From positions 1-40,265 of the forward strand of contig JALUZF010000052.1 in the NCBI GenBank assembly GCA_027012135.1: a DNA stretch of 40,265 nucleotides. Direction: 5' to 3'. A program made the translations under genes and the position numbers. Origin of the DNA: Gammaproteobacteria bacterium (GTDB lineage: Bacteria; Pseudomonadota; Gammaproteobacteria; GRL18). The notes beneath the pieces were generated by a model that worked only from the letters and a program-made list of their open reading frames with translations, ran no database searches and was not told the DNA's origin. This document shows, piece after piece, positions 15,138-36,725 of the stretch. Each line of letters starts with the position of its first letter. The first letter of the stretch is position 1.

Positions 15138-15186
15138 TTTCCATCTCCCCAAACAAGACGTCAGTAGTGTTTATTAAATTAATTGA

Positions 15187-15192: not shown

Positions 15193-15239
15193 TCGGTAAC
15201 AGCAGAGCTTACATAGTCGTAAAATCCTACATTCCGAAA

Positions 15240-18128: not shown

Positions 18129-20408
18129 TTACGCTTTTTTTGCTTGTTTAATACCCAGTGCTAAAATAGCGGGTAATAGCAAGATATCAAAAACCAGCGC
18201 GGCTAACAAACCAATCCCTGTCATTAAACCAAATTGATGTGTGGGAATAAATGATGAAAAAGCCAAAAAGAAAAACTGTCCACAAAGAATAATAGAGGTA
18301 GCAAAAACTGCTCTTCCAGCCGTACGATAAGCTCTCATTAAGGCAATAACCGGTTGTACCCCTATTTTAACTCGTCTTAAATATGCATCATACAGATGTA
18401 TCGTATCATCAACAGCAATTCCTATAGCCACACTCAGGACAATAGCTGTACCTATATCCAGTGTTATTCCCAGCAAACCCATCGTAACAAAAATAAATAT
18501 TATGGGAGAAATATTAGGTAACATTGCTATAAAAGCCGGTTTAAAGGAGCGCCAGAAAAAAGCCAGGCAGAGAAAAATCAGAATAAAGGCACCCGCCCCG
18601 CTTTTTAACTGACCATCAATTAATAATTTTTCCTGATCAGAAAACATTCGCGCCCCGCCAGCAAACTGCCATTTAAGCTGAACCGGCTGACTTTTGAGAT
18701 GTTCTTCAATTTTTTCCATGACCGCACGAATTTCTCGTGCTCCGTGGACATTCAGACTCATTTGCAGACGCGTACGCTGAAATTCACTATCGACCAAATC
18801 AAACAAATCTTTACCGTCATAAATAAACAGATACTGGCTAATAATGCTGCGGCTATCTGGTACATCTCTATATTTGGGATTTTCACTATGAAATGCCCAG
18901 TGCATTTCCTCCACAACATTGACCATGGATATCGTGGTATCTACTTCAGGAAGTGCCTGTACCCATTGCTGGATGCTTTTAATTTCCTTTAAAACATCGG
19001 GTTCTTTTAAACTGTCTCGTCCGACCCCATCAAATATTATTTCCAATGGGGTTGTCCCGGCAATTTTTTGACTTATCAGGTGATCGGATACAATTAAAGG
19101 GTGCTGTTGTGGAAAATACAGCAATAAATCAGTTTCCGCTTTGACTTTCAGTAATTGAGTCCCCCCTAAAAGCAATAAAATAACAACCCCGGTCACCACA
19201 AAACCAGCATAACGAATGCTCAACCGAGCAGAATTTATAATAATTCTGTTTAAACTGACCATGCCTGATGATTTTGTTTGCCAATCACCCTTATCCCAAC
19301 GATTTAACAGAGGTGGTAAAACCCATATCACCAGAAAATAAAGAACTAACAAGCCAAAGGCTGCAGCATAACCAAAGGTTTGTATTGGCGGTAACGGACT
19401 TAATCCTAAAGAAATCAGCCCGGCCATTGTGGTCAGAACCGTAAACCGAACGGGTCGCTCCACCTCAGCCAGAACCCGTTTAATTCTCGTAATGCCCTGA
19501 TAACCTAAAGTGGTCGCCTGTAAAAACGCATTAAAAAAATGGATAAAAAAAGCAATACACAATGAAGTCAGTAATGGGGTAATCATGGACACTGGCATGG
19601 AAAAAGGCTGCCCCAGTATAACCACAAAAAACAGGGCACTGTTGACAGCCACTAAACTAAACAGCAATACCAGCACAATGGGCAGAATTTTGCGAAACAA
19701 CCACCATAATAAAATAATACCTAATATAATTGTGGCCGGAATAAAGCGCATATTATCATCCAGCATGGTTTCAAACATCGCTACTTCAATTTCAATATTT
19801 CCCGCTATGGCCACCACGTCTGACATCAGCCCATGCTCAGTAATAACTTTACGAGTAAATGTTTCAATAGCAGCATTATCCAGGCTGCTTTTTAGTGATA
19901 CCGGGCGAATAATCAGAGCCTGATAGGCTCCATCAATGGAAACCACCCGTCCGGGTGCAAAGCGATCCTGTATAACCCGTTCCAGCCTCTGTTGTTCACT
20001 TAAATGCTGAACTTCATCCTTTTTCAGAACTGACTCTACTTTAAAACCATCATCAGAACCAAGAATATGATCCATTGTCGTCATTGATATGACACGCTCA
20101 ATTAATGGGTTTCTTTCCAGTTCTGAGACAATGGACTCAAATACCTCTAAATAGTCATCCGAATAAGCCTGTTTACTGGAAAAAAGGACAATTAGCACAT
20201 CATCTTCAGGAAACTGCTGACGCAACTCCTTTTCCAGGACTCTAACCGGCGCATCTTCGGGAAAAAAAACTTCGGCTCGATTATTGGGCTGAAGGTGTGC
20301 GAGGAAAAATACAGGTGTTATGATTACAACAAGTAGAAGAAACAGCGCAAATCTGAATGATAATAGTTTGATTTCTTTCACACAACTTCTTCCCTTTGTA
20401 TAAGACAT
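18129..20408 (-). CDS. MMPL/RND-superfamily lipid exporter
   Basis: A 759-residue inner-membrane transporter. One N-terminal membrane helix (RFALFLLLVVIITPVFFLAHL) is followed by a periplasmic loop, a five-helix bundle (about residues 220-370), a second single helix near 400, a second periplasmic loop, and a final five-helix bundle (about 620-755). This duplicated layout is that of RND/MMPL proteins. GIAVDDTIHLYDAYLRR in the second bundle matches the conserved RND helix with acidic residues for proton coupling. No membrane-fusion protein gene is adjacent; instead a LolA-like carrier and a barrel follow. Start ATG 20408 is preceded by AAAGGAA. Substrate is inferred to be a lipid or lipid-linked molecule, perhaps the product of the 21.5-28 kb block. 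Confidence 0.88.
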   Translation of the reverse strand: MSYTKGRSCVKEIKLLSFRFALFLLLVVIITPVFFLAHLQPNNRAEVFFPEDAPVRVLEKELRQQFPEDDVLIVLFSSKQAYSDDYLEVFESIVSELERNPLIERVISMTTMDHILGSDDGFKVESVLKKDEVQHLSEQQRLERVIQDRFAPGRVVSIDGAYQALIIRPVSLKSSLDNAAIETFTRKVITEHGLMSDVVAIAGNIEIEVAMFETMLDDNMRFIPATIILGIILLWWLFRKILPIVLVLLFSLVAVNSALFFVVILGQPFSMPVSMITPLLTSLCIAFFIHFFNAFLQATTLGYQGITRIKRVLAEVERPVRFTVLTTMAGLISLGLSPLPPIQTFGYAAAFGLLVLYFLVIWVLPPLLNRWDKGDWQTKSSGMVSLNRIIINSARLSIRYAGFVVTGVVILLLLGGTQLLKVKAETDLLLYFPQQHPLIVSDHLISQKIAGTTPLEIIFDGVGRDSLKEPDVLKEIKSIQQWVQALPEVDTTISMVNVVEEMHWAFHSENPKYRDVPDSRSIISQYLFIYDGKDLFDLVDSEFQRTRLQMSLNVHGAREIRAVMEKIEEHLKSQPVQLKWQFAGGARMFSDQEKLLIDGQLKSGAGAFILIFLCLAFFWRSFKPAFIAMLPNISPIIFIFVTMGLLGITLDIGTAIVLSVAIGIAVDDTIHLYDAYLRRVKIGVQPVIALMRAYRTAGRAVFATSIILCGQFFFLAFSSFIPTHQFGLMTGIGLLAALVFDILLLPAILALGIKQAKKA

Positions 20409-20524: not shown

Positions 20525-21337
20525 TTAAGCTTTATTTCTTCTGCGACGCACTGCACCCGCACCAATTAAACCAAGTCCCAGCAGAGCTAAAGAAGATGGT
20601 TCTGGAACTGTAGTGATACTAGAAAGTCTTAAATCAATATTGGTTGTTGCTGAGCCTGAGTTCAAAAGCACGGTTAAAGCACCAAGATTAGATAAATCGG
20701 CAACCTGGTTTCCAGCCGCACAGGTGATTGAGTTAACACCCGGTGAAGGATTAACAGCACCACATAAAGACGCTGTTTCAAAGCCTGCAAAACTCACAGT
20801 AGATATGTGTGGTGTACCATCATCGACGACTGCTGACGCTGAGAAGCTGATAGTTGTCCAATGAGTTGAGTCTGTATAGGCAGTTACATCAAAATTATAA
20901 CCGAGATCTGACTCAATTGTTATCAATTCAAAGGCATTCAGTGTACCGCCTTCAGTGATGTCGATACCGCCCAGACCTGTTTCGTTAAGTCCAGCACCAT
21001 TAATACTATCATCACCATCCCATTCAACGTAACCTGTACCAGTAACACCGGCATCGTTACTAAAGCGTAGCTGACTACCGAAAACAACCAGGCTTGTTTC
21101 AGCTAAACCCGGTGTTGCTCCAGTTAAAGCATTCGCTGTTAATTCACGAAAACCACCTAAAATGCTAGTATCTGCCGCAGAGCCAGCAGTTGTCGTTACG
21201 CCTGAACCACCATTGGTACCATCAACAGCACCTGTTTGATTAGTAGTAAACAGATCAATAGTACCTGCACTTACATTTGCACTGATTGCCAGCATGGCAG
21301 CACTACCAATCATTGATAATTTTTGTGTCAATTTCAT
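20525..21337 (-). CDS. PEP-CTERM sorting-domain protein (exosortase A substrate)
   Basis: A 270-residue secreted protein. It has an N-terminal signal peptide (MKLTQKLSMIGSAAMLAISA..., cleaved near NVSA-GT) and a canonical PEP-CTERM tail from residue 244: VPEP, a hydrophobic segment SSLALLGLGLIGAGAV, then RRRR. The exosortase at 4637..6187 is expected to cut near the PEP motif. The body is Gly-, Thr- and Asn-rich with predicted beta strands and two Cys residues (in SLCG and ITCA); I recognise no catalytic domain. It is likely a matrix protein interacting with the exopolysaccharide. A ribosome-binding site TGGAGAA precedes ATG 21337. It is monocistronic: a sigma-54-type promoter lies upstream and a strong terminator downstream. 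Confidence 0.94.
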   Translation of the reverse strand: MKLTQKLSMIGSAAMLAISANVSAGTIDLFTTNQTGAVDGTNGGSGVTTTAGSAADTSILGGFRELTANALTGATPGLAETSLVVFGSQLRFSNDAGVTGTGYVEWDGDDSINGAGLNETGLGGIDITEGGTLNAFELITIESDLGYNFDVTAYTDSTHWTTISFSASAVVDDGTPHISTVSFAGFETASLCGAVNPSPGVNSITCAAGNQVADLSNLGALTVLLNSGSATTNIDLRLSSITTVPEPSSLALLGLGLIGAGAVRRRRNKA

Positions 21338-21423: not shown

Positions 21424-21441
21424 ATGCTATAACTATGCCAA
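21424..21441 (-). promoter_or_regulatory. Predicted sigma-54 promoter of the PEP-CTERM gene
   Basis: The minus strand reads TTGGCATAGTTATAGCAT: GG (21439-21438), ten bases, GC (21427-21426). This matches the -24/-12 consensus TGGCAC-N5-TTGC with two mismatches and correct spacing. Transcription would start near 21414, leaving a leader of about 77 bases before the ATG. The adjacent PrsR gene encodes a sigma-54 activator with an intact GAFTGA loop. Confidence 0.72.
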
Positions 21442-21538: not shown

Positions 21539-22204
21539 TTACACTAGCAGATCTTTTATCTTTCTGGCCGGCACCCCCCCCCATAGTTCTTTTTCCGGTA
21601 TTATGGTATCTGGTTTTACTACTGAGCCAGCAGTAACCACAGAATCCGACCCAATTTCTACGCCGGACATTAAAACTGCATTAACCCCCACAGTTGCCCT
21701 GGCTCCAATTTTAACAGGCTGTAATATTATGGCTCCACTGACGATTGTATGGGCTGTTATCACCGAGTCCTGTCCAATAATGGCTTCTTCCCCTATACTA
21801 ATCAGTTGAGGATCGACCAGTTTTCCCCCAAGAGCAATGTCCTTACCGATTTTTGCACCAAACATCACGGCCACAACTGGCCGAGCGAAAACCGTAGTAA
21901 ATGGTAATAAAGCCCCCCTGCCGAACTCATACAATACGGTAAAAAGCTTCCAGTATGTAAACAGGCTGTCATCCATCTCATAGCGACCTGGATAAAATGG
22001 TTTATATTTCAACATTAGTTGTACAATTGCTGAAGAAAACAATCCATACACCAGTAAAAACAATAAGAGATCCGCAATCACATGATATTGATTCATAAGT
22101 TTTTGTGTAAAATAACTGACATAATTCATACTAATCAGACTGATAACTATGATAAAACTAATAATCAGGAAAGATAAAACATAATCACTTAAATTGGTTT
22201 TCAT
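21539..22204 (-). CDS. Hexapeptide-repeat (left-handed beta-helix) acyltransferase
   Basis: About 221 residues. ATG 22204 is preferred because AAGGAA lies 7 bases upstream; a longer frame would begin at TTG 22225. The N-terminal part has two or three hydrophobic segments (YVLSFLIISFIIVISLISM; VIADLLLFLLVYGLFSSAIV), so it is membrane-anchored. The C-terminal half has hexapeptide repeats (ISIGEEAIIGQDSVITAHTIVSGAIILQPVKIGARATVGVN in part) ending in WGGVPARKIK, the standard close of this superfamily. It would transfer an acetyl or other acyl group to a sugar or lipid. A run of nine G residues codes for the WGGV turn near the 3' end, a possible slippage site. It is divergent from the UGT-like gene, with a palindrome between them. 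Confidence 0.85.
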   Translation of the reverse strand: MKTNLSDYVLSFLIISFIIVISLISMNYVSYFTQKLMNQYHVIADLLLFLLVYGLFSSAIVQLMLKYKPFYPGRYEMDDSLFTYWKLFTVLYEFGRGALLPFTTVFARPVVAVMFGAKIGKDIALGGKLVDPQLISIGEEAIIGQDSVITAHTIVSGAIILQPVKIGARATVGVNAVLMSGVEIGSDSVVTAGSVVKPDTIIPEKELWGGVPARKIKDLLV

Positions 22205-22228
22205 TATTTTTTCCTTGCTAAACAAAAT

Positions 22229-22278: not shown

Positions 22279-23481
22279 ATGAATTCACAACCTAAACGCA
22301 TTCTTTTTTTTGCTGAAGCCGTTACACTTGCTCACATTGCCCGATGTTTGACTCTTGCCAGAGGACTACATGAAACAGGCAATTATACTATCGCTCTGGC
22401 GGCTGACAGCCGTTATGATTCTGTTCTTGGTAATATACCATTTCAACGATTACCTTTATTTACTGTATCCAGCGACTATTTTTTTTCTCAGCTAACTAAA
22501 GGCGTACCTCTTTATGATGTTAAGACATTAACAGCTTATGTCAAAGAGGACATAAAAAGAATTGAACAGTTCAGACCTGATTTTATTTTTGGAGATTTTC
22601 GTTTATCACTTGCAATTAGCAGCCGATTAAAAAAAATACCTTATGCAACCATCACTAATGCCTACTGGAGCCCATACCTGGATATTAAGTTCCCTATTCC
22701 TGAGCTTATGTTAACTAAACTGGTGGGCGTACGTTTAGCACAGGCTCTTTTTAACTGGTTTAAGCCTTTTGTGTTTGTGATACACTCCCTTCCCCTGAAC
22801 AGAACCTGTAAAAAATTTGGACAACCGACCCCAGGTTACGATATGCGAAAATGTTATACCTTCGCAGATATTACTCTTTATGCGGATATCGAATCACTGT
22901 TTACTATGCAACCATATCCAGAGAATCATTACTTTATTGGTCCAATATTATGGTCAGCCGATGTTTCTTTACCTTCATGGTGGAAGAATATACCAGAAGA
23001 CAAGCCCCGTATTTTTATAACACTTGGTAGTTCCGGTGATACTTCTGTCTTACCTGTTATATTGGAAACCCTGGCCAGGCTTGATGTTACTGTCATTGCA
23101 ATTACCGCAAACAAACAGGAAATACGCCATTCTTTTAAAAATATTTTTATTACCAGTTTTCTACCGGTAAAAAACGCTGTAAAAAATTCTGATATTATCA
23201 TTTGTAATGGAGGCAGTCCTATGGTTTATCAAAGCTTACTTGAAAACAAAGTGATTATTGGAATTCCTGGTAATTTGGACCAATATTTAATGATGAGCTT
23301 ATTAATCAAACAACCCGGGACATTGATGTTGCGAGCCGGTAAAGTCACTCAAAAGTCAGTTTTACAAACAGTGAATAAAGCTCTTGCGCTGCTGAAATCC
23401 AAACCAAGACATTCTGTCGTCAACACCTACGATACTATTGCCATAGTAGACGCAATAGTGAAAAAAACTTTACAGATTTAG
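22279..23481 (+). CDS. UGT/MGT-like GT1 glycosyltransferase
   Basis: A 400-residue GT-B enzyme and the only plus-strand gene in the window. The N-terminal half (RILFFAEAVTLAHIARCLTLARGL) carries the His in the acceptor site typical of macrolide/UDP-glucuronosyl-type transferases. The C-terminal half shows IFITLGSSGDTSVLPVILETLA and the donor-binding IICNGGSPMVYQSLLENKVIIGIPGNLDQYLM, a variant of the HCGxxS...P...DQ signature with Asn-Gly-Gly in place of His-Cys-Gly. Such enzymes glycosylate small hydrophobic acceptors or lipids. It converges on the ThiF/nitroreductase gene with only 7 bases between stops, and it is divergent from the acyltransferase. A role in decorating a lipid made by the neighbouring acyl-amino acid genes is my inference. 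Confidence 0.82.
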   Translation: MNSQPKRILFFAEAVTLAHIARCLTLARGLHETGNYTIALAADSRYDSVLGNIPFQRLPLFTVSSDYFFSQLTKGVPLYDVKTLTAYVKEDIKRIEQFRPDFIFGDFRLSLAISSRLKKIPYATITNAYWSPYLDIKFPIPELMLTKLVGVRLAQALFNWFKPFVFVIHSLPLNRTCKKFGQPTPGYDMRKCYTFADITLYADIESLFTMQPYPENHYFIGPILWSADVSLPSWWKNIPEDKPRIFITLGSSGDTSVLPVILETLARLDVTVIAITANKQEIRHSFKNIFITSFLPVKNAVKNSDIIICNGGSPMVYQSLLENKVIIGIPGNLDQYLMMSLLIKQPGTLMLRAGKVTQKSVLQTVNKALALLKSKPRHSVVNTYDTIAIVDAIVKKTLQI

Positions 23482-23488
23482 TTTATAA

Positions 23489-25453
23489 TTATTCTTGTAA
23501 TTCTTTTACCAGCAATCGCATTGAACGCGCCAGAGGCGGCACACCTGAACCAATTCTTCCCATAAAAACGGCATGTTCCGGAATATTTTTAGCTGTCAGA
23601 TTTTCTAAGTCAGCCGATAATTTTTCTGCCAGAGAATATGCCTGCTGATTATGTGTAAAAATTTCTGACTCTTTAATATATCTGGAAAAGATAATCGGGG
23701 TCATTTCTGGTTGAAACTGTAATCCTAGATGAGCACTGGTGAGCCAGAATCGCTGTACTGCCCGGCCTCCTGACCAGAAATCATCAATACTTTTCAGTTT
23801 ATGCTCAGAAACAATTACAAAGTGTGCAGCGCATTGAATTGCCGGTAACAAATCCAGTTCCAGGCGGGGTAACCAGGTACCCGCAAAATATTTATTAAGG
23901 ATTTGAACACGTTCCCAGCTTTGCATAGCCCACTGCATCAGCTTTAAGGTCAGAGGATCCAGGCCAACCGCCTGATCCGGTATTTTGTCTTTACTAAATT
24001 GTTTGTTCCAGTCAATAATTTGTCTGTGTACTTCGTAGGCTTCTTTAATGGTCAGCCTTATTCCGGCATTTTTAAAAAGCAATCGCGCCATTTGCCATTT
24101 ATTCTGCATCCCTTCCAGCCAGATAACACTAAATCCTTCTCCAACAGAGGCTTCCAGTTGCTGTTTCTGAGATGCCGTCAGCGGTCTACTGGAAAAAGCA
24201 CGACGCTGGGTGCTGCGAATTTTAATAAAGGGCAATAAGGGATCTGTTATTCGTTCAGGCGCATCCTGCAGCTCAACCTCAATAACAGAAGGCTCTGAAT
24301 CAGAATATTGTTTATAATTAAAAACAGCCCTTAATTTTTCTCCGGAAGCAGCAACCTGAATGGTTTCCAGAAGTGTACCTACAGCCGTCTGACTGGCTCG
24401 GCCATCCAGATCATAGACACACCAGTCTGCGGTATCAAATGTATGTATAAGGAAGTGTCGCTCATCCAGTATTTCAAAACGCCATGGCTGGGTATTATCG
24501 CCGCTGGGTGCCCAGCGGGCCAGATCCAGAATACGTTCGACAGGAGTATCCAGAACAGCCTCCTCCTGAATCTCTTTTCCCGAATGTGTTAATTTTTCTG
24601 ACAGTTTCTTGCGGGCAATTTTAATACCCAGTTTTTGAATCCAGTTATTATTGCCCCAGGGACGCCAGGTCTTTGCCAGTTTATTTTTAAAAGCATCAAA
24701 ATGCAGTCCCCTGGGGGCGGCAATAACATTACCACGCTTCAATAATATTTTAAGCGCATTAGTGGCTGCCAGCCCCGCGCATAGTTCACAGGCCATTGGG
24801 GTTGACGGACCTTTATGCTGCTCCAGATCGACCCGGCTGTCATCCACCAGGTAGGACATTTGCAGCATGGCGGGTGAAAGCCCTAATAGAAAACGCAGTA
24901 ATTGCTCATCTTCTGTCTGGCCGTTAAGTCGAAAGAATTCTTCAAAAGACATTTTGCCTGGTAAAAAACACAAAAAGGCGACACCCATTCCAAGCGGTGC
25001 CGCTGTGACAGCCGGTATACCCTTTTCTGCACAGGCAGCAAAAACCGCTTTACGGGCTTCCAGCGCAAAAAAGTCCAGACCATCCACGTAAAGATCAACA
25101 TCTTTTAAAAACTCGTCCAGATTTTGTTTATTTACCCCGTCCGGAAAACTATTGAGTTCTAATTCGGCATTAATGTCTCTGGCCAGTTCCGCCATAACTT
25201 CTGCTTTAGGTCGGCCAATATGACTTATGGCAGCGCCTGCCTGGCGGTTAAAATTAGCCAGCTCAAAAATATCGAGATCCGATATGTTAAATTTTCCGAC
25301 ACCCAGGCGGGTTAAGGTAATTAAATGGCTTCCGCCCACTCCGCCCAGCCCTGCAATAGCAATGCGCTTATTACGCAGAATTTCCTGCTCTGTTTCTGTT
25401 ACCCAGCCGATATTGCGTGAAAATGCGGTGTTATAGTGAAACAATTTATCCAT
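23489..25453 (-). CDS. E1-like adenylyltransferase (ThiF) fused to a nitroreductase-family domain
   Basis: A 654-residue two-domain cytoplasmic protein. Residues 1 to about 270 are a ThiF/MoeB/E1-like domain: nucleotide loop AIAGLGGVGGSHLITLTRLGVGK, DLDIFELANFNRQ (the Asn-Arg-Gln of the family), GRPKAEV, and VDGLDFFALEARKAVF. One CxxC (MACELC, about residue 220) is present, but I do not see the second pair that binds zinc in MoeB/ThiF. From about 300 on lies an FMN-dependent nitroreductase-like domain: ILDLARWAPSGDNTQPWRF, then a helix with RASQTAVGTLLETIQ and, later, SAHLGLQFQPEMTPIIF. The E1 part should adenylate a carboxylate and the flavin part oxidise or reduce. No ubiquitin-like GG-tailed partner is seen. 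It follows the N-acyl amino acid synthase by 18 bases. Confidence 0.87.
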   Translation of the reverse strand: MDKLFHYNTAFSRNIGWVTETEQEILRNKRIAIAGLGGVGGSHLITLTRLGVGKFNISDLDIFELANFNRQAGAAISHIGRPKAEVMAELARDINAELELNSFPDGVNKQNLDEFLKDVDLYVDGLDFFALEARKAVFAACAEKGIPAVTAAPLGMGVAFLCFLPGKMSFEEFFRLNGQTEDEQLLRFLLGLSPAMLQMSYLVDDSRVDLEQHKGPSTPMACELCAGLAATNALKILLKRGNVIAAPRGLHFDAFKNKLAKTWRPWGNNNWIQKLGIKIARKKLSEKLTHSGKEIQEEAVLDTPVERILDLARWAPSGDNTQPWRFEILDERHFLIHTFDTADWCVYDLDGRASQTAVGTLLETIQVAASGEKLRAVFNYKQYSDSEPSVIEVELQDAPERITDPLLPFIKIRSTQRRAFSSRPLTASQKQQLEASVGEGFSVIWLEGMQNKWQMARLLFKNAGIRLTIKEAYEVHRQIIDWNKQFSKDKIPDQAVGLDPLTLKLMQWAMQSWERVQILNKYFAGTWLPRLELDLLPAIQCAAHFVIVSEHKLKSIDDFWSGGRAVQRFWLTSAHLGLQFQPEMTPIIFSRYIKESEIFTHNQQAYSLAEKLSADLENLTAKNIPEHAVFMGRIGSGVPPLARSMRLLVKELQE

Positions 25454-25471
25454 TAAAGATTTATCCTGAAT

Positions 25472-26230
25472 TTATTCCGTTTGATAGGTTGATGCAATCT
25501 GCTCATAAACCCAGTGATATAGCTCGAGCAATTCAGGTCGCATATTGTCTATAGCGGATTGTGTAGTGCCAAAATAAGGGGCTCTGATCCCATGATAGTC
25601 AATATCCTTACCAACACGTTCAAATATAATGCCAGAACGCTTTAACAACCTGGGCAGAAAGGGTTCCATCATAGCAAAAACATTAGTTTTGCCTGACAGT
25701 ATAGTCATGGCCGTTGCCGCCAGAAAAGCAGCAACTGCTATCAGTAAGAATGTTCGCTGTTCTTCTTTTGAAAAATCCAGATTAATATCACCAAAGCGGG
25801 TCAGGCTTTCACCGTTACGCTTTCGAAACAAACCGTCTACAGCCAGGCGGGATATTTCACATTCTGTCTGTCGTTCCAGGTTAAAACTTTCGATAAGTGA
25901 CCTGTCCAGGCTTTCTGCACAATATTTTTCAAAGGGTAGCTGAATATCATGTCCATCCCCAATGGCCGGTACCAGTCTGACGCAAGCTGCAGGAATATTA
26001 GTGTTTTTATGAATAATCAGGCCGTGCAAAGCCAGTTCATCATATTCATCCTGCTCCATTTTGTTTGGACAGTTTTCCAGAGACTCAAATTTAAACTCTT
26101 CACAATAAACATTGTATCGAATCCGATAAGCCAGCTCTTTTAGCTCACGGGTATTGGCAAAAACAACTGAGAAATAGTTTTTAAACAGCTCTACCATAGT
26201 CTGACTTTTATCTGCTGTCTGATTATTCAT
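25472..26230 (-). CDS. Exosortase-linked N-acyl amino acid synthase (LuxI-like, TIGR03694-like)
   Basis: A 252-residue acyltransferase related to acyl-homoserine lactone synthases. LAYRIRYNVYCEEFKFE near residue 38 corresponds to the conserved LuxI R...Y...E region, AACVRLVP to the RL strand, and ECEISRLAVD to the E-x-SR segment. The family is known as the PEP-CTERM/exosortase-associated acyltransferase; characterised members make long-chain N-acyl amino acids from acyl carrier protein and an amino acid. ATG 26230 lies 1 base after the stop of the cyclic-nucleotide-binding gene, and the ThiF/nitroreductase gene follows 18 bases later, so the three form one operon. The amino acid used cannot be told from sequence. 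Confidence 0.88.
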   Translation of the reverse strand: MNNQTADKSQTMVELFKNYFSVVFANTRELKELAYRIRYNVYCEEFKFESLENCPNKMEQDEYDELALHGLIIHKNTNIPAACVRLVPAIGDGHDIQLPFEKYCAESLDRSLIESFNLERQTECEISRLAVDGLFRKRNGESLTRFGDINLDFSKEEQRTFLLIAVAAFLAATAMTILSGKTNVFAMMEPFLPRLLKRSGIIFERVGKDIDYHGIRAPYFGTTQSAIDNMRPELLELYHWVYEQIASTYQTE

Positions 26231-26231
26231 A

Positions 26232-26705
26232 TTATAAGTGTTGTTTTATACCATGAGCCTTTAATCCCCAGGCAAATAAATCATTAACCCGATGATTAGC
26301 TCTATTAAGACGACTGATTAAAATCTCAAACAGATCTTTATAAAACAAATAACCCTGAGATGGATGAGCATCAAGATAAACTCCCAGTCTTTCACCATTA
26401 ATTTCTACCAGGCAGCCATCCGATGTAGCCCGGACCGAGGCCGTGCGAAGTTGTGATTCATACAGAGCAATTTCACCAAAAATATCACCTGCTTTAAGTT
26501 CCCAGATCCCTGGTTGTATGCGTTTATCCTGCTCAAGTTCAATATTACCCGCAACCCTTAAACTGCCTTGTTCAATATAAAACAGCGAACCACCTTCCTG
26601 ACCTTCTTCTACAATGATATCATTATTATGAAATTCTCTTCGCTTCCATGCCGAACGCTCCGGAAAATGCGGATCATTCAATATATCTTTAAGAATATTA
26701 TTCAT
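26232..26705 (-). CDS. Stand-alone cyclic-nucleotide-binding domain protein
   Basis: A 157-residue protein made of one Crp-type nucleotide-binding domain. GGSLFYIEQGSLRVAG, the phosphate-binding cassette AGDIFGEIALYESQLRTASVRA and the following helix are visible. There is no DNA-binding domain: after the C helix it ends in ...NDLFAWGLKAHGIKQHL. It is co-translated with the N-acyl amino acid synthase (1-base gap), which suggests that it senses a nucleotide and modulates the enzyme, as cNMP-regulated acyltransferases do. The ligand (cAMP, cGMP or none) is unresolved, although the FGE...RTAS cassette is intact. Confidence 0.85.
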   Translation of the reverse strand: MNNILKDILNDPHFPERSAWKRREFHNNDIIVEEGQEGGSLFYIEQGSLRVAGNIELEQDKRIQPGIWELKAGDIFGEIALYESQLRTASVRATSDGCLVEINGERLGVYLDAHPSQGYLFYKDLFEILISRLNRANHRVNDLFAWGLKAHGIKQHL

Positions 26706-26867
26706 GAACTCATCTCTTATAACAGCCTCTTTTAATCAAAGAAGCCCCTTAAAGCTGAGTATAGTCATAAATACAGGAAGATTCTACAGCTTTGAATTAT
26801 TTTAGGAGGCTGATTTAAAAGGAATAATTGAGCAGAAAGGTAGTGCTATTATAGCAATTGCAAGTTC

Positions 26868-28121
26868 CTAGTCTAGTTTATTATCTATAATGGTTGAATT
26901 ATCTATAACGGGTGCGTTATAAAACCTGATTAAATGTGAAGTGTAATCAAGACTGCCTTTTTCTTTTTCTTTTTCCAGAATAACGGTGACTTCTTCTATA
27001 CTAACATGAGCAGAACGGGCAATTTGCTTAGTCCCTACCTTTGCAATACGGACTTTGGGTTCTTTCTGGTCTGGTAATGCCGAGCACCATAATTTCTGCA
27101 ATTCAAACTGTATACGTGCATTTTGAGGTGCAAAAACATGGATCATAGCCTGATCATGCATATTTCGCAGGCGAGTTGCAAAGTAACTCAGCAACTGTCC
27201 CATTTTTTCTGGATTCTCCTTGATCATTTCCAGTAAATGCTTTCTTGGAATCACATTAACTTCAACATTAGTTAATGCTGTCGCCGTAGCAGAGCGAGGT
27301 TTATGATCAAAAATGGCCATTTCACCAAATAATTCCCCTTTAGAGAGGTTTGAAAGAACCATTTCATTACCATCATTATCTATTTTTGATATACCTATCC
27401 AGCCTTCCTCAATAACATAGGCATTTTCCGCTATTTCTTCCTGAAAAAACAAAACTTCACCCGCGGAAAGGATAATACGTTCAAAATATTTATTACTCCC
27501 CTGAAGCCAGATGGAATCAGAGCTCTTATAAAGGTCTCCAAATGACCATTTAAAGGCTTTATCAAAAGGAGCAATCATAGGAATTAGCTTATCCCCTATA
27601 GATTCACACCAGCTTGCTTCTCCTATAACTTCAAAGCCAATTCGGCCATAAAGTGAAAGGGTTTCTTCACTAATTGAAGCCAGAATATGTGTAGTGCCAA
27701 AACCATGCATAACATTGCCTGCAGTTTTAAACATCGCATGTATGATATTTCTGCGGTTTCTGGAATCCGATTTAATTGCCAACATTCCCCCGCTTACAAA
27801 AACCGGGGTTATATTGTTCTTTTTACATTCAGCCGTGTATTTTTGACGGGCTTCTGAAAAATCAAAATGGACTTCGGAGGGTAAGCCTATTTCAGAGTCT
27901 TTATTAACCCGCATACAGGCGACTGGCTTTTTATTGTCATAGGCAATTATATTAGCAACACCTGGAATGGTATCAAAACGATCAACGATACGGGATTTGT
28001 TTTCACTTGAACTTGAATCTAAAGAAAATCTTCCTTTTTCAATAACATAGACTTCATAACGCAATTTAAATACGTCATCCAGTTCCCTGGCAGTGTGTGC
28101 AATTTTTAACTTTATTGACAT
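26868..28121 (-). CDS. LuxI-like acyltransferase / cNMP-binding / Crp-HTH fusion protein
   Basis: A 417-residue three-domain protein. Residues 5-190 resemble a LuxI/N-acyl amino acid synthase or GNAT acyltransferase: ARELDDVFKLRYEVYVIEKGRF at 11-32, VACMRVN at 67-73, and HAMFKTAGNVMHGFGTTHILASI around 128-150 followed by LYGRIGFEVIGE. Residues about 210-325 are a cyclic-nucleotide-binding domain with an intact cassette GELFGEMAIFDHKPRSATA (262-280). Residues about 358-400 look like a Crp-type winged helix (TKQIARSAHVSIEEVTVILEKEKEKGSLDY). The domain order suggests either a nucleotide-gated enzyme or an enzyme that is also a transcription factor. It precedes the cNMP-domain gene by 162 bases. 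Catalytic activity is inferred. Confidence 0.82.
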   Translation of the reverse strand: MSIKLKIAHTARELDDVFKLRYEVYVIEKGRFSLDSSSSENKSRIVDRFDTIPGVANIIAYDNKKPVACMRVNKDSEIGLPSEVHFDFSEARQKYTAECKKNNITPVFVSGGMLAIKSDSRNRRNIIHAMFKTAGNVMHGFGTTHILASISEETLSLYGRIGFEVIGEASWCESIGDKLIPMIAPFDKAFKWSFGDLYKSSDSIWLQGSNKYFERIILSAGEVLFFQEEIAENAYVIEEGWIGISKIDNDGNEMVLSNLSKGELFGEMAIFDHKPRSATATALTNVEVNVIPRKHLLEMIKENPEKMGQLLSYFATRLRNMHDQAMIHVFAPQNARIQFELQKLWCSALPDQKEPKVRIAKVGTKQIARSAHVSIEEVTVILEKEKEKGSLDYTSHLIRFYNAPVIDNSTIIDNKLD

Positions 28122-28244: not shown

Positions 28245-31016
28245 TTATTGTAACCTCTTAAAAAGAATTTTGGCATTTTCTTTTTCAGAAAAGTTAACTA
28301 CATCTCCTGAAATCTCAGTAAGTATTTCTTTAGCTTTATTATGATTGCCTGTTAAATAATAAGCCTTCGCTAAATGATACTGAATATCATATGATTTTGG
28401 TGCAAGCTCTGCCGCCCTTTGAAGTATTTTGACAGATTGTTCTGCCTGGTTTTCTTTAAGCAGTATATACCCATAAGTATCAAGTATGGCTGGAGAATCC
28501 GGTTTTAACTGATAGGCTTTTTTTGCATAACCCAGAGCATCTTTATGACCCTGTTCTGCCAATATCCAGGCCAGATTATTTAATGCCAGCACATTGTCAG
28601 GGTTATTTTTTATTATTATCTGATATTGTTTGGCTGCAGAATTATAATTTTTCTGTTGTTGTAACAATAAGGCTAATCGATATCGAGCTACCTGATTTGA
28701 TGTATTGTTAATCAGTGCATTTTTTAAAATTTTAATAGCATGATCTGGATGATTTTGTTGTAAAAATATATCTACAATTATTAATAGCACCTGATTTGAA
28801 GGTTTTTTGCCAAATATTTTCTGATATTTGACCAGTGCATCATCATATTTCTTCTCTGATAATAGGATATCCGCTTCCAGTTTATACCCTTCAATATCTT
28901 CAGGGAAAGTAGTTTGAAGATGTTTGCTAACCTCAAGAGCTTCTTTAAACTGTTCATTTTGTACTAATAATTTAGCTTTTAATATTAAGGCCTTTTTATC
29001 ATCAGGCTGGGATTCAAGTACATTATCCAGCAACTCCAAAGCTCGGGAGTAATCCTTATTTTCAACCAGCAAGGTAATTAATAATAATTGATACCTTCGA
29101 TTACCCGGCTCGTTAAACAGCAGTTTTTCCAGTACAGCTTCTGCTTTTCTGCGTTTTCCATTCAAGAACAATGCTTTGACCTGAAAATATTGCGCTCCTT
29201 CCTGCCCAGGGTAACGCTTGACAAATTCATCACTCAGCTCCAGAACCTTTTCTTTCTGATCCTGTTTAACATACCATTTAGCCAGCTGCTCAAGAGCAAT
29301 GCGTTCTGATTTGAAATCACCTTCTGATTTTTTTAAACCTTCCTTAATAAAATATTCGACTTTATCAGTATTACCCGTAATTTCGGCAATAGAAGCACGG
29401 CCTAACCAGGCTTTTATGTATTTATTATTAATTTTTAAAATTTTCTTAAAAAGCTCATCGGCCTGTTTATATTGTTTTTCAGCCATATATATCCTGACTA
29501 TACCCAAATAAGCAGGAATATAATTTTTATTAATTTCAATTGCTTTCTGATATGTAGACAGTGCCAGACTTTTATTTTTGTTAATCAAATATAAAGCGGC
29601 CTGGAGGTTATATAAGTTAGAATCATCAGGAGACTGTATTTTTAATGTTTCTATTGTTTTTCTGGCTTTTTCATATTCTTTATTTTGAATATAAGTAATA
29701 ATTAACAGATATTGCGCCTGCTTGTTATTCTTATCTGAAGCAATATTTTCCAGGCTGGCAATTGCATTTTTTAAGTCATTCGCCTTAAAGTAACCCGTTA
29801 CAAGCCTTTCCTTAATCAGTTTATTGTCAGGTTCCAGTTTTTTTGCATTGTGTAAAGCCTCCACTGCTTTTTGATAATCTCCTGTGAGCAAATAGGCTGT
29901 TCCCAGGCTTAAAGACAAATTAGCACTTTGAGCAACCTTGTCCTTGTCAATAGATTCGAGTAATAATAATGCCTGCTCACCTTCCTTTTTTGCAATATAT
30001 AAATTTGCCAGCATCCTTTTTACTTCTACATTATCTGGAAACTGGAACAACACCTGATTTAAATATTTCTCTGCCTGATTTAAATTGCCCAGTGCCAATT
30101 CTGACACCCCGACAACAAACATTGATAGATAATGCTCAGGTAATACATTTAGAACATTTTGAGCATATTCTATAGCTTCTTTGTATTGCTTCTGGTTTAA
30201 TTTACTTAATGACATTAAAGAATTAGCCTGAGGTAAGTTCTTATTTTTCTTTAAAACATCAGCAAGTTCATGTTCAACATCTTCAAAATCTTTTAACTTG
30301 TATTTTATTCCAGCTATTTCCAGCCTATAACGCAAATTATTAGGGTATTGCTCATGCAATTTATATAAAATTTCAAGAGATTCTTTATATTTTTGTTTAC
30401 TACTAAGGCTGATAGCTTTCAACAATAACGCCTTAGGATTGTTACTATCTCGTTGTAGAACCGATTCTATTATTTCTTCCGCAGTAGAATTATTTTTTTC
30501 TAGCATAGCCAACTGGACAAAGGTCAGCTGTACCTCTATCGTATTATCGGATAGCTTGGCCATTTCCAATAATTCTTTGGCATCTGCAAGTTTATTCTCA
30601 CTTAAAGCAATATCCGCAAGAATAACCATCCTTTGACTTTCTTGTGATTTATCCTCATAGCTTTTTTTTAAAATTTCTTTTACTTTCTGGTTTTCATTTT
30701 TGAACCTGAGCAGTGATGCATAAGCTAACTGTATTTGAACATCATTTTTATTTATTTTGTAAGCTTTTTCAAATTCTTTAAATGCACCAGAAATATTACC
30801 ACTTTTATTATAGCTTTGGCCTAATAAATAACGAACATGTGCATCATCAGGATTTTCTTTTAAGTAATTTTTTAATTGAATGATTGCTGCTTCATATTCA
30901 CCCTTATCAAAGTATTGTTGTGCATCGTCAATGTAGTCAGAAGCATAACTAGTTGTTGAAAACACAACGCTTATGGTAATCAGAGTTAATATCACTATTT
31001 GTTTAAAATTTTTCAT
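28245..31016 (-). CDS. prsT: PEP-CTERM system TPR-repeat protein PrsT
   Basis: A 923-residue exported protein composed almost wholly of tetratricopeptide repeats (for example AQQYFDKGEYEAAIIQLKNYLKENPDDAHVRYLLGQ at the start and LAWILAEQGHKDALGYAKKAYQLKPDSPAILDTYGYIL near the end), about two dozen in all. It sits in the standard prsK-prsR-prsT order of exosortase A systems. The family model is described as a lipoprotein, but here the signal peptide (MKNFKQIVILTLITISVVFSTTSYAS) has no lipobox Cys, so it should be a soluble periplasmic protein. TPR arrays suggest a scaffold for export or assembly of PEP-CTERM proteins or polysaccharide. AGGA precedes ATG 31016 at a usual distance. A 48-base gap separates it from prsR. 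Confidence 0.92.
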   Translation of the reverse strand: MKNFKQIVILTLITISVVFSTTSYASDYIDDAQQYFDKGEYEAAIIQLKNYLKENPDDAHVRYLLGQSYNKSGNISGAFKEFEKAYKINKNDVQIQLAYASLLRFKNENQKVKEILKKSYEDKSQESQRMVILADIALSENKLADAKELLEMAKLSDNTIEVQLTFVQLAMLEKNNSTAEEIIESVLQRDSNNPKALLLKAISLSSKQKYKESLEILYKLHEQYPNNLRYRLEIAGIKYKLKDFEDVEHELADVLKKNKNLPQANSLMSLSKLNQKQYKEAIEYAQNVLNVLPEHYLSMFVVGVSELALGNLNQAEKYLNQVLFQFPDNVEVKRMLANLYIAKKEGEQALLLLESIDKDKVAQSANLSLSLGTAYLLTGDYQKAVEALHNAKKLEPDNKLIKERLVTGYFKANDLKNAIASLENIASDKNNKQAQYLLIITYIQNKEYEKARKTIETLKIQSPDDSNLYNLQAALYLINKNKSLALSTYQKAIEINKNYIPAYLGIVRIYMAEKQYKQADELFKKILKINNKYIKAWLGRASIAEITGNTDKVEYFIKEGLKKSEGDFKSERIALEQLAKWYVKQDQKEKVLELSDEFVKRYPGQEGAQYFQVKALFLNGKRRKAEAVLEKLLFNEPGNRRYQLLLITLLVENKDYSRALELLDNVLESQPDDKKALILKAKLLVQNEQFKEALEVSKHLQTTFPEDIEGYKLEADILLSEKKYDDALVKYQKIFGKKPSNQVLLIIVDIFLQQNHPDHAIKILKNALINNTSNQVARYRLALLLQQQKNYNSAAKQYQIIIKNNPDNVLALNNLAWILAEQGHKDALGYAKKAYQLKPDSPAILDTYGYILLKENQAEQSVKILQRAAELAPKSYDIQYHLAKAYYLTGNHNKAKEILTEISGDVVNFSEKENAKILFKRLQ

Positions 31017-31064
31017 AAAACTGTCCTAAGTTTTGATGCATTTAACTTAATATAATTAAATTTA

Positions 31065-32435
31065 TTAACTTTCAATATTTGCAATTTGAATACTGTATTT
31101 ATTTAAAAGAGTATAAAGTGTCGGTCTTGTCACACCCAGCAATTTGGCTGCATTAGAAATATTATAATCAGCATAACTTAATGCTCGTTTAATTGCTGTA
31201 GTTTCTGCAATTTCTCTAACTTCTTTTAAGTTCAGTGGCAAAGATTTATCTTCTTTTTGTAGATTTAACTCAAGGTCTCCAACCGTTATATGATTACCAT
31301 CAGCCATGATCACTGCTCGTTTTACCTTGTTTTCAAGCTCACGAATATTACCTGGCCAGTGATAACTTTCGATTAAATTAGCTGCATCAGCACTAAAACC
31401 TTTTATTTTTTTATGCTGCTGTTCGCTAAAACGTCTGACAAATGCCGTTGCAATCACCAATGCATCACCTTCCCGCTCTCTTAAAGGTGGTATTTTAATG
31501 GTCATTTCACTCAGACGATAATACAAATCCTCCCTGAATCGTCCTTCTACAATTAACTGTTCCAGATTTTGATGGGTGGCACAAACGATACGAATATCAA
31601 CAGGAATTTCTGTTCTGCCTCCAATGCGTTCTATGGTACGTTCCTGTAAAAAACGCAGTAACTTTGCCTGTAATGACATGGGCAAATCGCCAATTTCATC
31701 CAGGAAAAAAGTCCCCTGATCAGCATATTCTATTTTGCCTTTGGTCTGTTTAGCGGCCCCTGTAAAAGCCCCTTTTTCATATCCAAATAATTCACTTTCA
31801 AGTAAGTTTTCTGGAATCGCTGCCGAATTAACTGCAACAAAAGGCTTCTTTTTCCTGTGGCTAAGATTATGCAAGGCTCTGGCAATAAGTTCTTTCCCAG
31901 TACCACTATCTCCTAATAATAAAGTAGTAACATCGCTAGGGGCTATCTTCTCTACAGTACGAGCCAGTTTCAGCATGGGTTCACTGACAGCTATCATACC
32001 ATCTAATGGTTCATCTGTTTTATGGGAAAGCCGCTGATTTTCTTTTTCCAGTTCACTCAGGTGAAAAGCTCTCTGAATGAGTAAATTAAGAGTTTCTATA
32101 TCAATGGGTTTCTGGTAGAAATCATAGGCTCCCATAGCCACGGCCTGAACAGCTACTTCTCTGTCGTCATTGCCCGTTACTACAATTATCTTGGTTTCCG
32201 GCGCCAGTTTCAGGATTTCTTTTAATGCGGCCATGCCTTCACTGGCATTGGCCGGATCAGGTGGCAACCCCAGATCCAGAGTAACAACCTCTGGTTGATA
32301 GCGACGGATGGCAGCAATAGCCTCTTCACGATCACCTGCAATCACGACTTTATAATTTTCAAAACTCCATTTGAGCTGTTTTTGCAGACCTGGATCGTCT
32401 TCTACAATTAATAGTACTTTATCATTACTGCTCAA
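31065..32435 (-). CDS. prsR: PEP-CTERM-box response regulator, sigma-54 activator PrsR
   Basis: A 456-residue NtrC-type regulator. The receiver domain has the acidic pair VEDD (11-14) and phosphoacceptor Asp54 (VVTLDLGLPP). The AAA+ domain shows Walker A GDSGTGKELIA, the sigma-54 contact loop GAFTGA in ELFGYEKGAFTGAAKQ, Walker B GTFFLDEIGDLP, and the arginine-finger region RFREDLYYRL. A Fis-type HTH (NISNAAKLLGVTRPTLYTLLNKY) ends the protein. It is activated by the histidine kinase encoded directly upstream, which it overlaps by 4 bases. In exosortase systems PrsR is the known activator of PEP-CTERM genes from sigma-54 promoters, and a matching promoter is present at 21424-21441. Confidence 0.96.
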   Translation of the reverse strand: MSSNDKVLLIVEDDPGLQKQLKWSFENYKVVIAGDREEAIAAIRRYQPEVVTLDLGLPPDPANASEGMAALKEILKLAPETKIIVVTGNDDREVAVQAVAMGAYDFYQKPIDIETLNLLIQRAFHLSELEKENQRLSHKTDEPLDGMIAVSEPMLKLARTVEKIAPSDVTTLLLGDSGTGKELIARALHNLSHRKKKPFVAVNSAAIPENLLESELFGYEKGAFTGAAKQTKGKIEYADQGTFFLDEIGDLPMSLQAKLLRFLQERTIERIGGRTEIPVDIRIVCATHQNLEQLIVEGRFREDLYYRLSEMTIKIPPLREREGDALVIATAFVRRFSEQQHKKIKGFSADAANLIESYHWPGNIRELENKVKRAVIMADGNHITVGDLELNLQKEDKSLPLNLKEVREIAETTAIKRALSYADYNISNAAKLLGVTRPTLYTLLNKYSIQIANIES

Positions 32436-34537
32436 TTTTTGTTCCTTTCGCTTATAGGTAAAGGTTCAGTTGTAGATAAGGGTAATGTTATGGTAAAGGT
32501 TGTACCTTTTCCCAGTTCACTGTCCACATGGATGTAACCTGAATGTTTCAGGATATAACTTCTTGCCTCATAGACACCAATCCCCATACCGGCATTCCCC
32601 TTGGTGGTATCAAATGGTTTAAATAAACGTTCTGCAATAAATTTTTCATTCATTCCAATTCCGGTATCCGTAATTTTAATAATAGCACTACTGCCTGTTT
32701 CTTCCAGACTGATAATAATAGAACCATCATCATCCGTTGCATCCTGTGCATTCTGGATCAAATGTCCCAGTATGGCTGAAATTTTTTCCTGTTCACCATT
32801 GATACAGCATTCTGTTAGTTCAGTTCTGAAATCTGGAGTGGGTTTATGGGCTGACTGCTGTTTAACAATATCCTGGATTACCTTTACCATATCAAATATG
32901 GAACGTGAATCCTGGACATTTCTCTGACGCAGCTGATTAACCAGGTTCTGCATTTTATTGACCACGTTTTCCAGCGTATCTATTGCATCGTCAATAAACT
33001 CTGGATTATGTTTGTGTTTTTCAGCATTTTTTACAATCAGAGAGACCTGGGCCACCAGGTTTTTTAAATCATGTATGACAAAGGCTGATAAGCGGCTGTA
33101 GGCTTCAAACTGCCTGGCGGTTGAAAGTTCTTCACTGGCCTGATTTAGTACAAAAGCGTTGGCTAGCTGCAGGCCAACAGTTCTAAGCAGATCATGATCT
33201 TCCCAGTTTAACTGTCGAGGGGCCCTGGGTTTGGTTAATACCACAAAGGCTTTTAGCTGATTCTGTTGTAAAATAGGGATCATTAACCAGGTATTTTTTG
33301 CCTTCTCCAGCCAGTCACTGAAATCTGCCTGCTGGTATATTTCAGGATTATCCTGATATTCATAAAAATCAATAACCCATTGCTTATTCTGTAAAAACCG
33401 CACAGCCGGATTCTCTGCCTGAATTAAATCCCAGTCAGCATCCAGGTTGAGATTGTAATTTTCAGCCAGGTAATAATCTCCATTATCATTTTTAACCCAT
33501 AAGCCACCACAGGAGCTGTCCACCAGATCGGCCAGGGTTTTAATCATAAAACGAGATAACTCATTAAAAGATTTTAGTTCCGCCAGGGTTTTACTGAGTT
33601 TGATCCATTCCTCCCGGTAGTCATAACGGTAATTGACAAAATGTTTATTAAAATAGACCTTTAAGCGGGCTCTTAAAGCACCGGAAAACATCAGGATAAG
33701 AAGTACCAGGATGGCCAGGAAAATAAACAGGATCTGGGCAATATCTCCCCAACTGCCACCGTATTTTTTGATATAAAAACCTGCCAGCGACATGACAATC
33801 AGATACATTCCAGTACCGACCAGTGCTGATGTATGAAAAATCACCTTACGGGAAATAGTATAGTTTCTGGTTTCACCCTGAAGCCGTACCACAGAGATAG
33901 CCAGTAATGGCACGACTAAAGCATTAACTATGCCCCGGGCATTCCATAATAAATAATCGATGCCGCTAAAAAGCAGGGATTTACTGTAAATAATAAAATC
34001 AAAAATAAAGATACCGCCCAGCCCCAGGCAGATAAACTTTATGGCCCAGCGTTGCTCTGAAATAGCATTGCGATAAAGTTGTTCAATTAAAATCAGACCG
34101 ATAATGGCAAATGATACATGCGCCATTAATCTGAAATCTATTCCCAGTAACTGATTAACTTTAAATTGCAGTCCCGGATTGATTTCAATTAGAAAAATAA
34201 TCAGGCTGCCAGTAATCAGGACGGCACTATAGCCCGACTTAAAAAGCGAAAGGAAAATATGCCTGTTATCATTAACAGACATGCCATTTAATAAGGCCAG
34301 CAGGTAAATATACCAGGCCAGATTGCGCAGGGTTTCCAGGGGCAGGATACTGGTGGTATACAGGTCATCATTATAGAGATTATAACTGGTATAAAATGCC
34401 CATGCACTGGAGAACAGCACGGCAATAAAAAACAGTATCCCTGAAGTGTGTTTTTTAATGCCCCATAAACTGAGTATCAGTAAAATAGAATAGGCAATAC
34501 CAGCACTGAGATAGCTGATAATATTATAGTGTTCCAT
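32432..34537 (-). CDS. prsK: PEP-CTERM system sensor histidine kinase PrsK
   Basis: A 701-residue membrane sensor kinase. The N-terminal 285 residues contain about eight hydrophobic helices grouped in pairs, with no obvious periplasmic domain. A GAF-like region (about 315-465) precedes the dimerisation/phosphoacceptor helix with His489 in SAFVIHDLKNLVAQ. The ATPase domain has N box LIQNAQDAT, G1 ITDTGIGM, and G2 GNAGMGIGVYEAR. The layout is that of PrsK of exosortase A systems. It follows the epsB-type gene by 17 bases and overlaps prsR. The stimulus is unknown; the multi-helix sensor suggests a membrane or lipid signal. Confidence 0.95.
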   Translation of the reverse strand: MEHYNIISYLSAGIAYSILLILSLWGIKKHTSGILFFIAVLFSSAWAFYTSYNLYNDDLYTTSILPLETLRNLAWYIYLLALLNGMSVNDNRHIFLSLFKSGYSAVLITGSLIIFLIEINPGLQFKVNQLLGIDFRLMAHVSFAIIGLILIEQLYRNAISEQRWAIKFICLGLGGIFIFDFIIYSKSLLFSGIDYLLWNARGIVNALVVPLLAISVVRLQGETRNYTISRKVIFHTSALVGTGMYLIVMSLAGFYIKKYGGSWGDIAQILFIFLAILVLLILMFSGALRARLKVYFNKHFVNYRYDYREEWIKLSKTLAELKSFNELSRFMIKTLADLVDSSCGGLWVKNDNGDYYLAENYNLNLDADWDLIQAENPAVRFLQNKQWVIDFYEYQDNPEIYQQADFSDWLEKAKNTWLMIPILQQNQLKAFVVLTKPRAPRQLNWEDHDLLRTVGLQLANAFVLNQASEELSTARQFEAYSRLSAFVIHDLKNLVAQVSLIVKNAEKHKHNPEFIDDAIDTLENVVNKMQNLVNQLRQRNVQDSRSIFDMVKVIQDIVKQQSAHKPTPDFRTELTECCINGEQEKISAILGHLIQNAQDATDDDGSIIISLEETGSSAIIKITDTGIGMNEKFIAERLFKPFDTTKGNAGMGIGVYEARSYILKHSGYIHVDSELGKGTTFTITLPLSTTEPLPISERNKN

Positions 34538-36173: not shown

Positions 36174-36725
36174 TTATTCACCAAAAAGATAATTCAGGTC
36201 AAATTCAATTTCTGTAAAGGGTTCCAGTCTGACTTTTGCTTTATTTTGTACGGATACCAGGACTTTATAAGTATCTTCTGAGTACTGGTATGCAGAGAGT
36301 ATTTTTTCTTCCGGATTGATTATCCAGTAGAAGGGTATTTTGTACTCTTTTAGAAGGTTAAAGATGGTCACAGTATCTTTTGCCACATGACCAGGGGATA
36401 CAATTTCACAAACCCAGTCAGGTGTCATTTTCATAACGCCTTTAGGTCTTTGAGGAACCCGCTCTTTACGCCATCCTGCAATATCATGGACAGGACATTG
36501 GTGTTCGTTGTAGCGGACACTGATTTCAGTCACTATCCACCAACCGCCAGGACCTGACATCCTTTTATAGTGAGCTAATTCAACAGGAACATCACTTTGA
36601 ATAGAAGAATGATCAAAGCTCGCCATTGGGCGTTTAATAATCTCACCATTAATTAATTCAAAACGCTCATCTGATTTTTGTGCTTCCATTAAATCATCAA
36701 TGGTTTTTAATTTGTGCGCTTCCAC
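36174..36725 (-). CDS. Uma2-family (DUF820) PD-(D/E)XK nuclease-like protein
   Basis: A 183-residue protein of the Uma2 family, which has a restriction-endonuclease-like fold. The opening LKTIDDLMEAQKSDERFELINGEII, the central HDIAGWRKERVP (family PDvagw, with His-Asp) and DWVCEIVSPGHVAKD, followed by IFNLLKEYKIPFYWIINPEEKILSAYQY, are diagnostic; the active-site Asp and Glu appear intact. The cellular role of the family is unclear; it is often multicopy and associated with mobile or accessory DNA. It lies between the tRNA-Thr gene and the exopolysaccharide locus, at the point where conserved synteny ends. Confidence 0.88.
   Translation of the reverse strand: MEAHKLKTIDDLMEAQKSDERFELINGEIIKRPMASFDHSSIQSDVPVELAHYKRMSGPGGWWIVTEISVRYNEHQCPVHDIAGWRKERVPQRPKGVMKMTPDWVCEIVSPGHVAKDTVTIFNLLKEYKIPFYWIINPEEKILSAYQYSEDTYKVLVSVQNKAKVRLEPFTEIEFDLNYLFGE

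Follow-up and report, generated by a model that had tools for sequence, protein, structure and literature searches.

Gene content of the locus

We analyzed a stretch of 40,265 nucleotides from a gammaproteobacterium (contig JALUZF010000052.1, assembly GCA_027012135.1; hereafter the window), in which four adjacent genes, here called A to D, lie within an exosortase locus (Table 1). An initial annotation made from the sequence alone had described them as two acyltransferases resembling N-acyl amino acid synthases (NAS), two cyclic nucleotide monophosphate (cNMP)-binding modules and one fusion of an E1-like domain with a nitroreductase domain. This content was borne out by Pfam and NCBIfam matches, as was the attachment to an exosortase locus: XrtA, PrsK/PrsR/PrsT and many further genes of the XrtA exosortase/exopolysaccharide (EPS) system are present in the window and surround A to D. 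The same annotation had combined the four genes into one operon, which applies to only part of the cluster. Only 1 nt separates B from C and 18 nt separate C from D, whereas 162 nt lie between A and B. Since in two relatives, moreover, a gene of opposite orientation is inserted there, A is probably a transcription unit of its own. The gene inserted in these relatives, which like all loci of relatives carry an L number, encodes 313 aa (L033, 6740-7681, minus strand; L036, 11736-12677, plus strand). It is absent from the window and gave no Pfam or NCBIfam match.

Table 1. Features of the exosortase locus in the window.
Feature	Position	Strand	Remarks
D, ThiF/E1-like + Acg-type nitroreductase fusion	23489-25453	-	654 aa
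D, ThiF/E1-like cyclase domain, residues 1-290	24584-25453	-	PF00899 142.7 bits; PRK08223 424.9 bits (cut-off 266)
D, Acg-type nitroreductase/flavin-dependent oxidase domain, residues 291-654	23489-24583	-	PF00881 27.4 bits
C, exosortase-associated N-acyl amino acid synthase TIGR03694	25472-26230	-	252 aa
B, stand-alone cyclic-nucleotide-binding domain protein	26232-26705	-	157 aa; PF00027 54 bits
A, FeeM-fold acyltransferase + cNMP-binding domain + CRP-like winged helix	26868-28121	-	417 aa
GT-B glycosyltransferase, CalG1-like, probable tailoring enzyme	22279-23481	+	CalG1 match and recurrence at D loci
Left-handed beta-helix acyltransferase, possible tailoring enzyme	21539-22225	-	hexapeptide repeats; 10/80 D loci
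MMPL/HAE3-type transporter, candidate exporter	18129-20408	-	PF03176 85.8 bits
LolA-like periplasmic carrier, candidate exporter part	17205-18029	-	PF17131 183.4 bits; 12/52 D loci with full flanks
652-aa protein without family match	15240-17198	-	accompanies LolA-like protein and transporter; one homologue scores as DUF1302
Exosortase XrtA	4637-6187		
PrsK/PrsR/PrsT	28245-34537		

Domains and conserved residues of proteins D and C

The predicted structure of D had a mean pLDDT (predicted local distance difference test score) of 87.4. Its ThiF part matched the folds of AclA, ThiF and MoeB with Z of 26-27 and its nitroreductase part that of Acg (2ymv) with Z of 25.5 over 292 residues (root mean square deviation 3.2), and the structure matches listed for D consisted of E1-type and Acg chains only. 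The solved E1 structures closest to D in sequence include TcdA, another enzyme that cyclizes an N-substituted amino acid. Residues of the ATP site (G35-G41, D61, N67, R70, Q71, K83, D124 and D127) are nearly invariant in 81 homologues; GxGGxG is present, and D124 and D127 are kept in every one of these sequences. In about 24 of the 81, ThiF and nitroreductase are encoded by two neighboring genes instead of one fused gene.

In the fused protein TrzS cyclization comes first and desaturation second; D217A abolishes the former and R540A impairs the latter, and the closest structure named for its oxidase part is again Acg 2ymv (PMC12856293). We located these positions in D via L126, a gammaproteobacterial protein of the TrzS family: D127 of D aligns with D205 of L126, and R466, which is invariant among the homologues, with R530. 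The L126 residues lie 10-12 positions below the tested D217 and R540, a constant offset, as would be expected of equivalent residues and from which the M. smegmatis numbering was derived. Mapped in this way, R466 and Q581 of D fall on the positions of R540 and Q651 of TrzS.

Protein C scores 217.6 bits on TIGR03694 (cut-off 111.95) and is the only gene above this cut-off in the host genome. Its LuxI-type catalytic residues R38, E59/D61/D64, R85, E125 and R128 are 96-100% conserved in 54 homologues. As far as can be told from PMC11072679, which cites Craig 2011 only for the link between synthase and exosortase, the synthase family of that study is the one to which C belongs. A reading of C as a quorum-sensing synthase of acyl-homoserine lactones is disfavored by its weak match to PF00765 (30.9 bits, cut-off 24), by its membership in TIGR03694 and by the use of N-acyl amino acids in the homologous pathways.

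Comparison with known pathways and proposed reactions

Three described systems combine an acyltransferase with ThiF and a nitroreductase-type oxidase to make acyl-oxazolones. OxzAB of Pseudoalteromonas rubra was the first (de Rond et al. 2021, cited in PMC10404671 and PMC12856293). According to these citing papers it shares with C-D an N-acyltransferase followed by a fusion of ThiF and flavin oxidase, likewise in Gammaproteobacteria. What they report of OxzAB mentions no exosortase context. TyzACB of M. tuberculosis forms tyrazolone: N-acyl-Tyr/Phe, the product of the acyltransferase, is cyclized by the ThiF protein with ATP and then desaturated by the oxidase with O2 (PMC10404671). It provides the same three activities as C-D and has an MMPL gene, mmpL9, next door, but ThiF and oxidase are separate genes, and neither TIGR03694 membership nor a nearby exosortase is stated. 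TrzAS of Mycobacterium and Rhodococcus forms tryptazolone and agrees with C-D in the order of ThiF and oxidase, the positions of the catalytic Asp and Arg, the Acg-type fold and the adjacent acyltransferase; it differs in about 70 extra N-terminal residues of TrzS and in its context of cyclic di-GMP genes with no exosortase (PMC12856293).

A related group makes open-chain lipids. Producers of N-acyl dehydrotyrosines have NAS, ThiF and nitroreductase, whereas a producer of the saturated forms only is without ThiF and nitroreductase (PMC12479983). Stieleriacines, whose cluster has a PEP-CTERM gene and EPS genes in its neighborhood, change the way biofilms form (PMC7293339). The clusters of this group share the three genes with the window but keep ThiF and nitroreductase separate, include methyltransferases in Stieleria and have no described cNMP-fused acyltransferase.

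We consider it likely that the module in the window encodes an acyl-oxazolone pathway of the OxzAB/TyzACB/TrzAS type in an exosortase-linked form. The basis observed here is the gene content, the domains, the catalytic residues and the linkage to exosortase and acyltransferase. From the chemistry of the homologues together with the conserved residues of D and C we propose that C, possibly along with A, would join a fatty acyl group to an amino acid, which judging solely from the homologues is probably aromatic. The ThiF domain of D would then activate the carboxylate with ATP and close the N-acyl amino acid to an oxazolone, and the flavin mononucleotide domain would desaturate the alpha-beta bond with O2. 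This would yield an acyl-oxazolone, or an N-acyl dehydro-amino acid if the ring opens afterwards.

The initial annotation had already placed an E1-like domain on the free carboxylate and a fused flavin domain behind it. This agrees with the chemistry of the three described systems and with the residues kept in D, except that reduction by the flavin had been allowed for as well; a reductive role was rejected, as the characterized relatives of this oxidase type use O2. Nor is the full pathway undescribed, as had been supposed, its chemistry having been published between 2021 and 2025 for other genomes. What seems unreported in the literature searched is the exosortase link of the oxazolone-type enzyme, the three-domain fusion described below and the tailoring and export neighbors. 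Our search found no paper combining PEP-CTERM, ThiF and nitroreductase, though one may exist outside the literature searched, and in the sole paper containing both oxazolone and exosortase the terms occur in passages that have nothing to do with each other.

Linkage of the module to exosortase loci

Scanning 84,980 species genomes yielded more than 500 relatives of D, of which the best 80 were examined with their flanks. The gene order PrsK-PrsR-PrsT-A-B-C-ThiF recurs in relatives; the flavin part is fused to ThiF in L033, while L036 and L037 have a more distant oxidase gene nearby instead. The initial annotation had proposed a survey of how often the ThiF/nitroreductase fusion occurs with the exosortase-linked acyltransferase, and the outcome supports the association. 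An acyltransferase of the TIGR03694 or FeeM type is present at 59/80 loci, and 5 more have only an A-type gene. At 40 loci the acyltransferase lies directly upstream of the D homologue on the same strand, at a distance of -10 to 255 nt. The remaining 16 loci are without acyltransferase and include six from Janthinobacterium; several end at contig edges. Among five other, fragmented genomes of the host genus the distribution is patchy, this ThiF type occurring as a stand-alone gene in two and being absent from three.

We also surveyed 274 genomes sampled evenly across Gammaproteobacteria, 26 of which encode a ThiF of the PRK08223 type. XrtA scored above cut-off in 24/26 of these and in 27/248 of the others (Fisher p=3e-18), TIGR03694 in 20/26 against 14/248 (Fisher p=2e-16). 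The test takes genomes as independent, though related genomes are not; the effect is very large and extends across many families. In all 20 genomes with both ThiF and TIGR03694 the two genes share a contig, with a gap of at most 411 bp in 10. Five of the 6 ThiF genomes without TIGR03694 have a FeeM-type gene of A-like length, located near ThiF on the same contig in 3. The ThiF type of D is thus almost confined to XrtA genomes in this class sample. Because the gene order recurs in relatives and the survey gives p values of about 1e-16 to 1e-18, the linkage of the module is far beyond chance.

A second kind of linkage was found in another phylum. Nitratidesulfovibrio vulgaris DP4 encodes a protein of 989 aa (WP_011787321.1; L124, NC_008741.1, 8068-11037) with FeeM (150 bits), ThiF (168 bits) and Nitroreductase (35 bits) matches in one polypeptide. 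Its gene sits on plasmid pDVUL01 between XrtA-system EPS and PEP-CTERM genes. The protein belongs to the NCBI family PRK14852, which is named only 'hypothetical protein', and is annotated as ThiF family adenylyltransferase or hypothetical protein. It has the same three domains and the same XrtA setting as the window, but as a single polypeptide, and it assigns the synthase, the E1-like domain and the flavin oxidase to a common pathway at an exosortase locus.

Alternative interpretations

Several observations weigh against the assignment to an acyl-oxazolone pathway. The set of 80 loci was chosen by likeness to D and is therefore biased towards its context; the class survey is independent of D, but its ThiF model may be centered on this clade. 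The six Janthinobacterium loci and a few others have ThiF and nitroreductase but no acyltransferase closer than about 10 kb, and several ThiF genes are without a fused oxidase. Protein D reaches 184 bits on the TrzS/Rv1355c equivalog NF005901 (cut-off 476) and on this basis is a relative of TrzS, not an ortholog; the cut-off is passed in one of the 274 class genomes, which is not the host. Since no oxazolones were detected in the dehydrotyrosine producers (PMC12479983), the final stable compound may lack the ring. Finally, for the copies at exosortase loci the product is a prediction from the genes.

The absence of oxazolones from producers with the same gene trio leads to the alternative that we take most seriously, although we would put it at somewhat less than probable: the main product would resemble an N-acyl dehydro-amino acid, and the oxazolone would be only transient, acidifying the alpha-H for desaturation by the flavin domain before being hydrolyzed. 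The stieleriacine cluster, which adjoins PEP-CTERM and EPS genes, and the occurrence of Massilia, Zoogloea and Colwellia-type loci among the relatives of D fit this well. On the other hand, the fused ThiF-oxidases of known activity, OxzB (as described in citing papers) and TrzS, release oxazolones, and no thioesterase or hydrolase was seen adjoining D.

The close tie to XrtA in the class survey would also be accommodated if D were an acyl-activating ligase that passes a ThiF-made adenylate or oxazolone to an amine, for instance of deacetylated exopolysaccharide or a surface protein. Oxazolones are electrophiles, and the XrtA-system polysaccharide deacetylase in the locus would expose amines. 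We regard this as improbable, however, as no homologue is known to act in this way, no transferase for the step was identified and the oxazolones of the homologues accumulate as free lipids (PMC12856293). That D modifies a ribosomal peptide next to an incidental acyltransferase has hardly any likelihood left: its E1-like fold is indeed close to the peptide-modifying AclA, PaaA and MccB, but the partner is an acyltransferase at most loci and the Nitratidesulfovibrio fusion brings the idea close to refuted.

The parallel to the E1/flavin pairs of azole peptide synthesis drawn in the initial annotation accordingly holds as chemistry, and only as that. Among the scanned window open reading frames (ORFs) of at least 120 aa, no match to YcaO or another enzyme of ribosomally synthesized and post-translationally modified peptides was found. 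An assignment of D to thiazole/oxazole-modified microcin (TOMM) synthesis was rejected, as no YcaO was seen and the acyltransferase partner and the three-domain fusion speak against it.

Cyclic-nucleotide modules A and B

Protein A matched FeeM (PF21926) with 67.8 bits (cut-off 27) and the cNMP-binding domain (PF00027) with 91.7 bits, and its best fold match, from a structure model of modest confidence, was FeeM (2g0b). It retains R21, D47, D50 and R71. The catalytic E..R motif of the LuxI/FeeM group is replaced by S110..M113, invariant in 8/8 homologues of A and matched by eye to the motif of C and of FeeM-type proteins. Protein A could be an acyltransferase that works by a changed mechanism and is gated by cyclic nucleotides, or else a regulator that senses acyl compounds. 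We count for the former that A is the sole NAS-like gene near ThiF in L059, L069, L074 and the genome G258, and for the latter its winged-helix tail.

The phosphate-binding motif FGE...RSA of A is intact, with E267, R276 and S277 invariant in 8 homologues, and two class III cyclases are encoded in the host genome, which makes a regulatory role of the nucleotide-binding modules plausible. B is kept between A and C in L033, L036 and L037. Cyclic nucleotides would in this case control synthesis via A and B, in step with the production of exopolysaccharide and PEP-CTERM surface proteins.

Possible tailoring, export and role of the lipid

The glycosyltransferase gene next to D is of the small-molecule type, with CalG1 among the best solved relatives of its product. 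CalG1-like glycosyltransferases were found at 27/80 D loci, in 8 of them directly after D on the same strand at a distance of -3 to +26 nt. The MMPL transporter is kept beside the module in L033, L036, L037, L038 and L042, and the LolA-like protein and the 652-aa protein occur together with an MMPL transporter at some loci and with an ABC/MacB pair at others; the 652-aa protein is perhaps the outer-membrane partner. These neighbors suggest a modified, exported lipid, which the glycosyltransferase would glycosylate and the MMPL/LolA-like set would export. Being present at a minority of loci, the tailoring and export parts are probable accessories.

In Methylomonas LW13, disruption of the exosortase acyltransferase abolishes a polysaccharide band that complementation brings back (PMC11072679). 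Given this effect and the altered biofilms caused by stieleriacines, a role of the lipid in surface or biofilm behavior, together with EPS and PEP-CTERM proteins, is likely. The exosortase tie thereby hints at the purpose of lipids whose chemistry is already known from other genomes. A much broader claim would be that exosortase loci of Proteobacteria and Thermodesulfobacteriota encode a dedicated acyl-oxazolone or dehydro-lipoamino acid, glycosylated, exported and under cyclic-nucleotide control, and that this lipid works as a component of the exosortase/EPS surface system itself. In this full form we think it unlikely; if it were true, such a lipid might for example acylate amines on polysaccharide or sorted proteins, or be the lipid partner of the exosortase. 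The survey merges both questions, that of the lipids and that of the exosortase, into one, which is testable with predicted masses in culturable and non-pathogenic exosortase strains such as Methylomonas, Zoogloea and Thiobacillus.

Further observations

Sigma-54-like sites, considered with regard to control by PrsR, gave no overall signal in the window (20 matches, 21.25 expected), and predictions of sigma-70 promoters and terminators were at chance level. One sigma-54-like site, TGGCATAGTTATAGCA at 21425-21440 on the minus strand, lies about 90 nt before a PEP-CTERM gene (20525-21337), the site count of the window being at chance level.

Some relatives of D stand in other surroundings. The Janthinobacterium pairs (L079, L084, L085, L089, L092 and L107) sit behind a methyl-accepting chemotaxis protein. 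In Thiomargarita (L120) the ThiF/nitroreductase fusion is directly followed by a protein of 1312 aa resembling a nonribosomal peptide synthetase (12077-16015, plus strand; condensation, adenylation, carrier and thioesterase domains), with no acyltransferase near. A Bdellovibrio plasmid (L125, AP029178.1, 4789-8852) carries a stand-alone ThiF, 45% identical to that of D, which follows an ABC transporter whose permease is of the MacB/FtsX type.

A putative endonuclease of the Uma2 family is encoded at the edge of the exosortase locus (36174-36725). The G+C content of D is 45% (G+C at third codon positions, GC3, 0.40) compared to 33-38% for the adjoining PrsT and A, a base composition that may point to separate acquisition of D.

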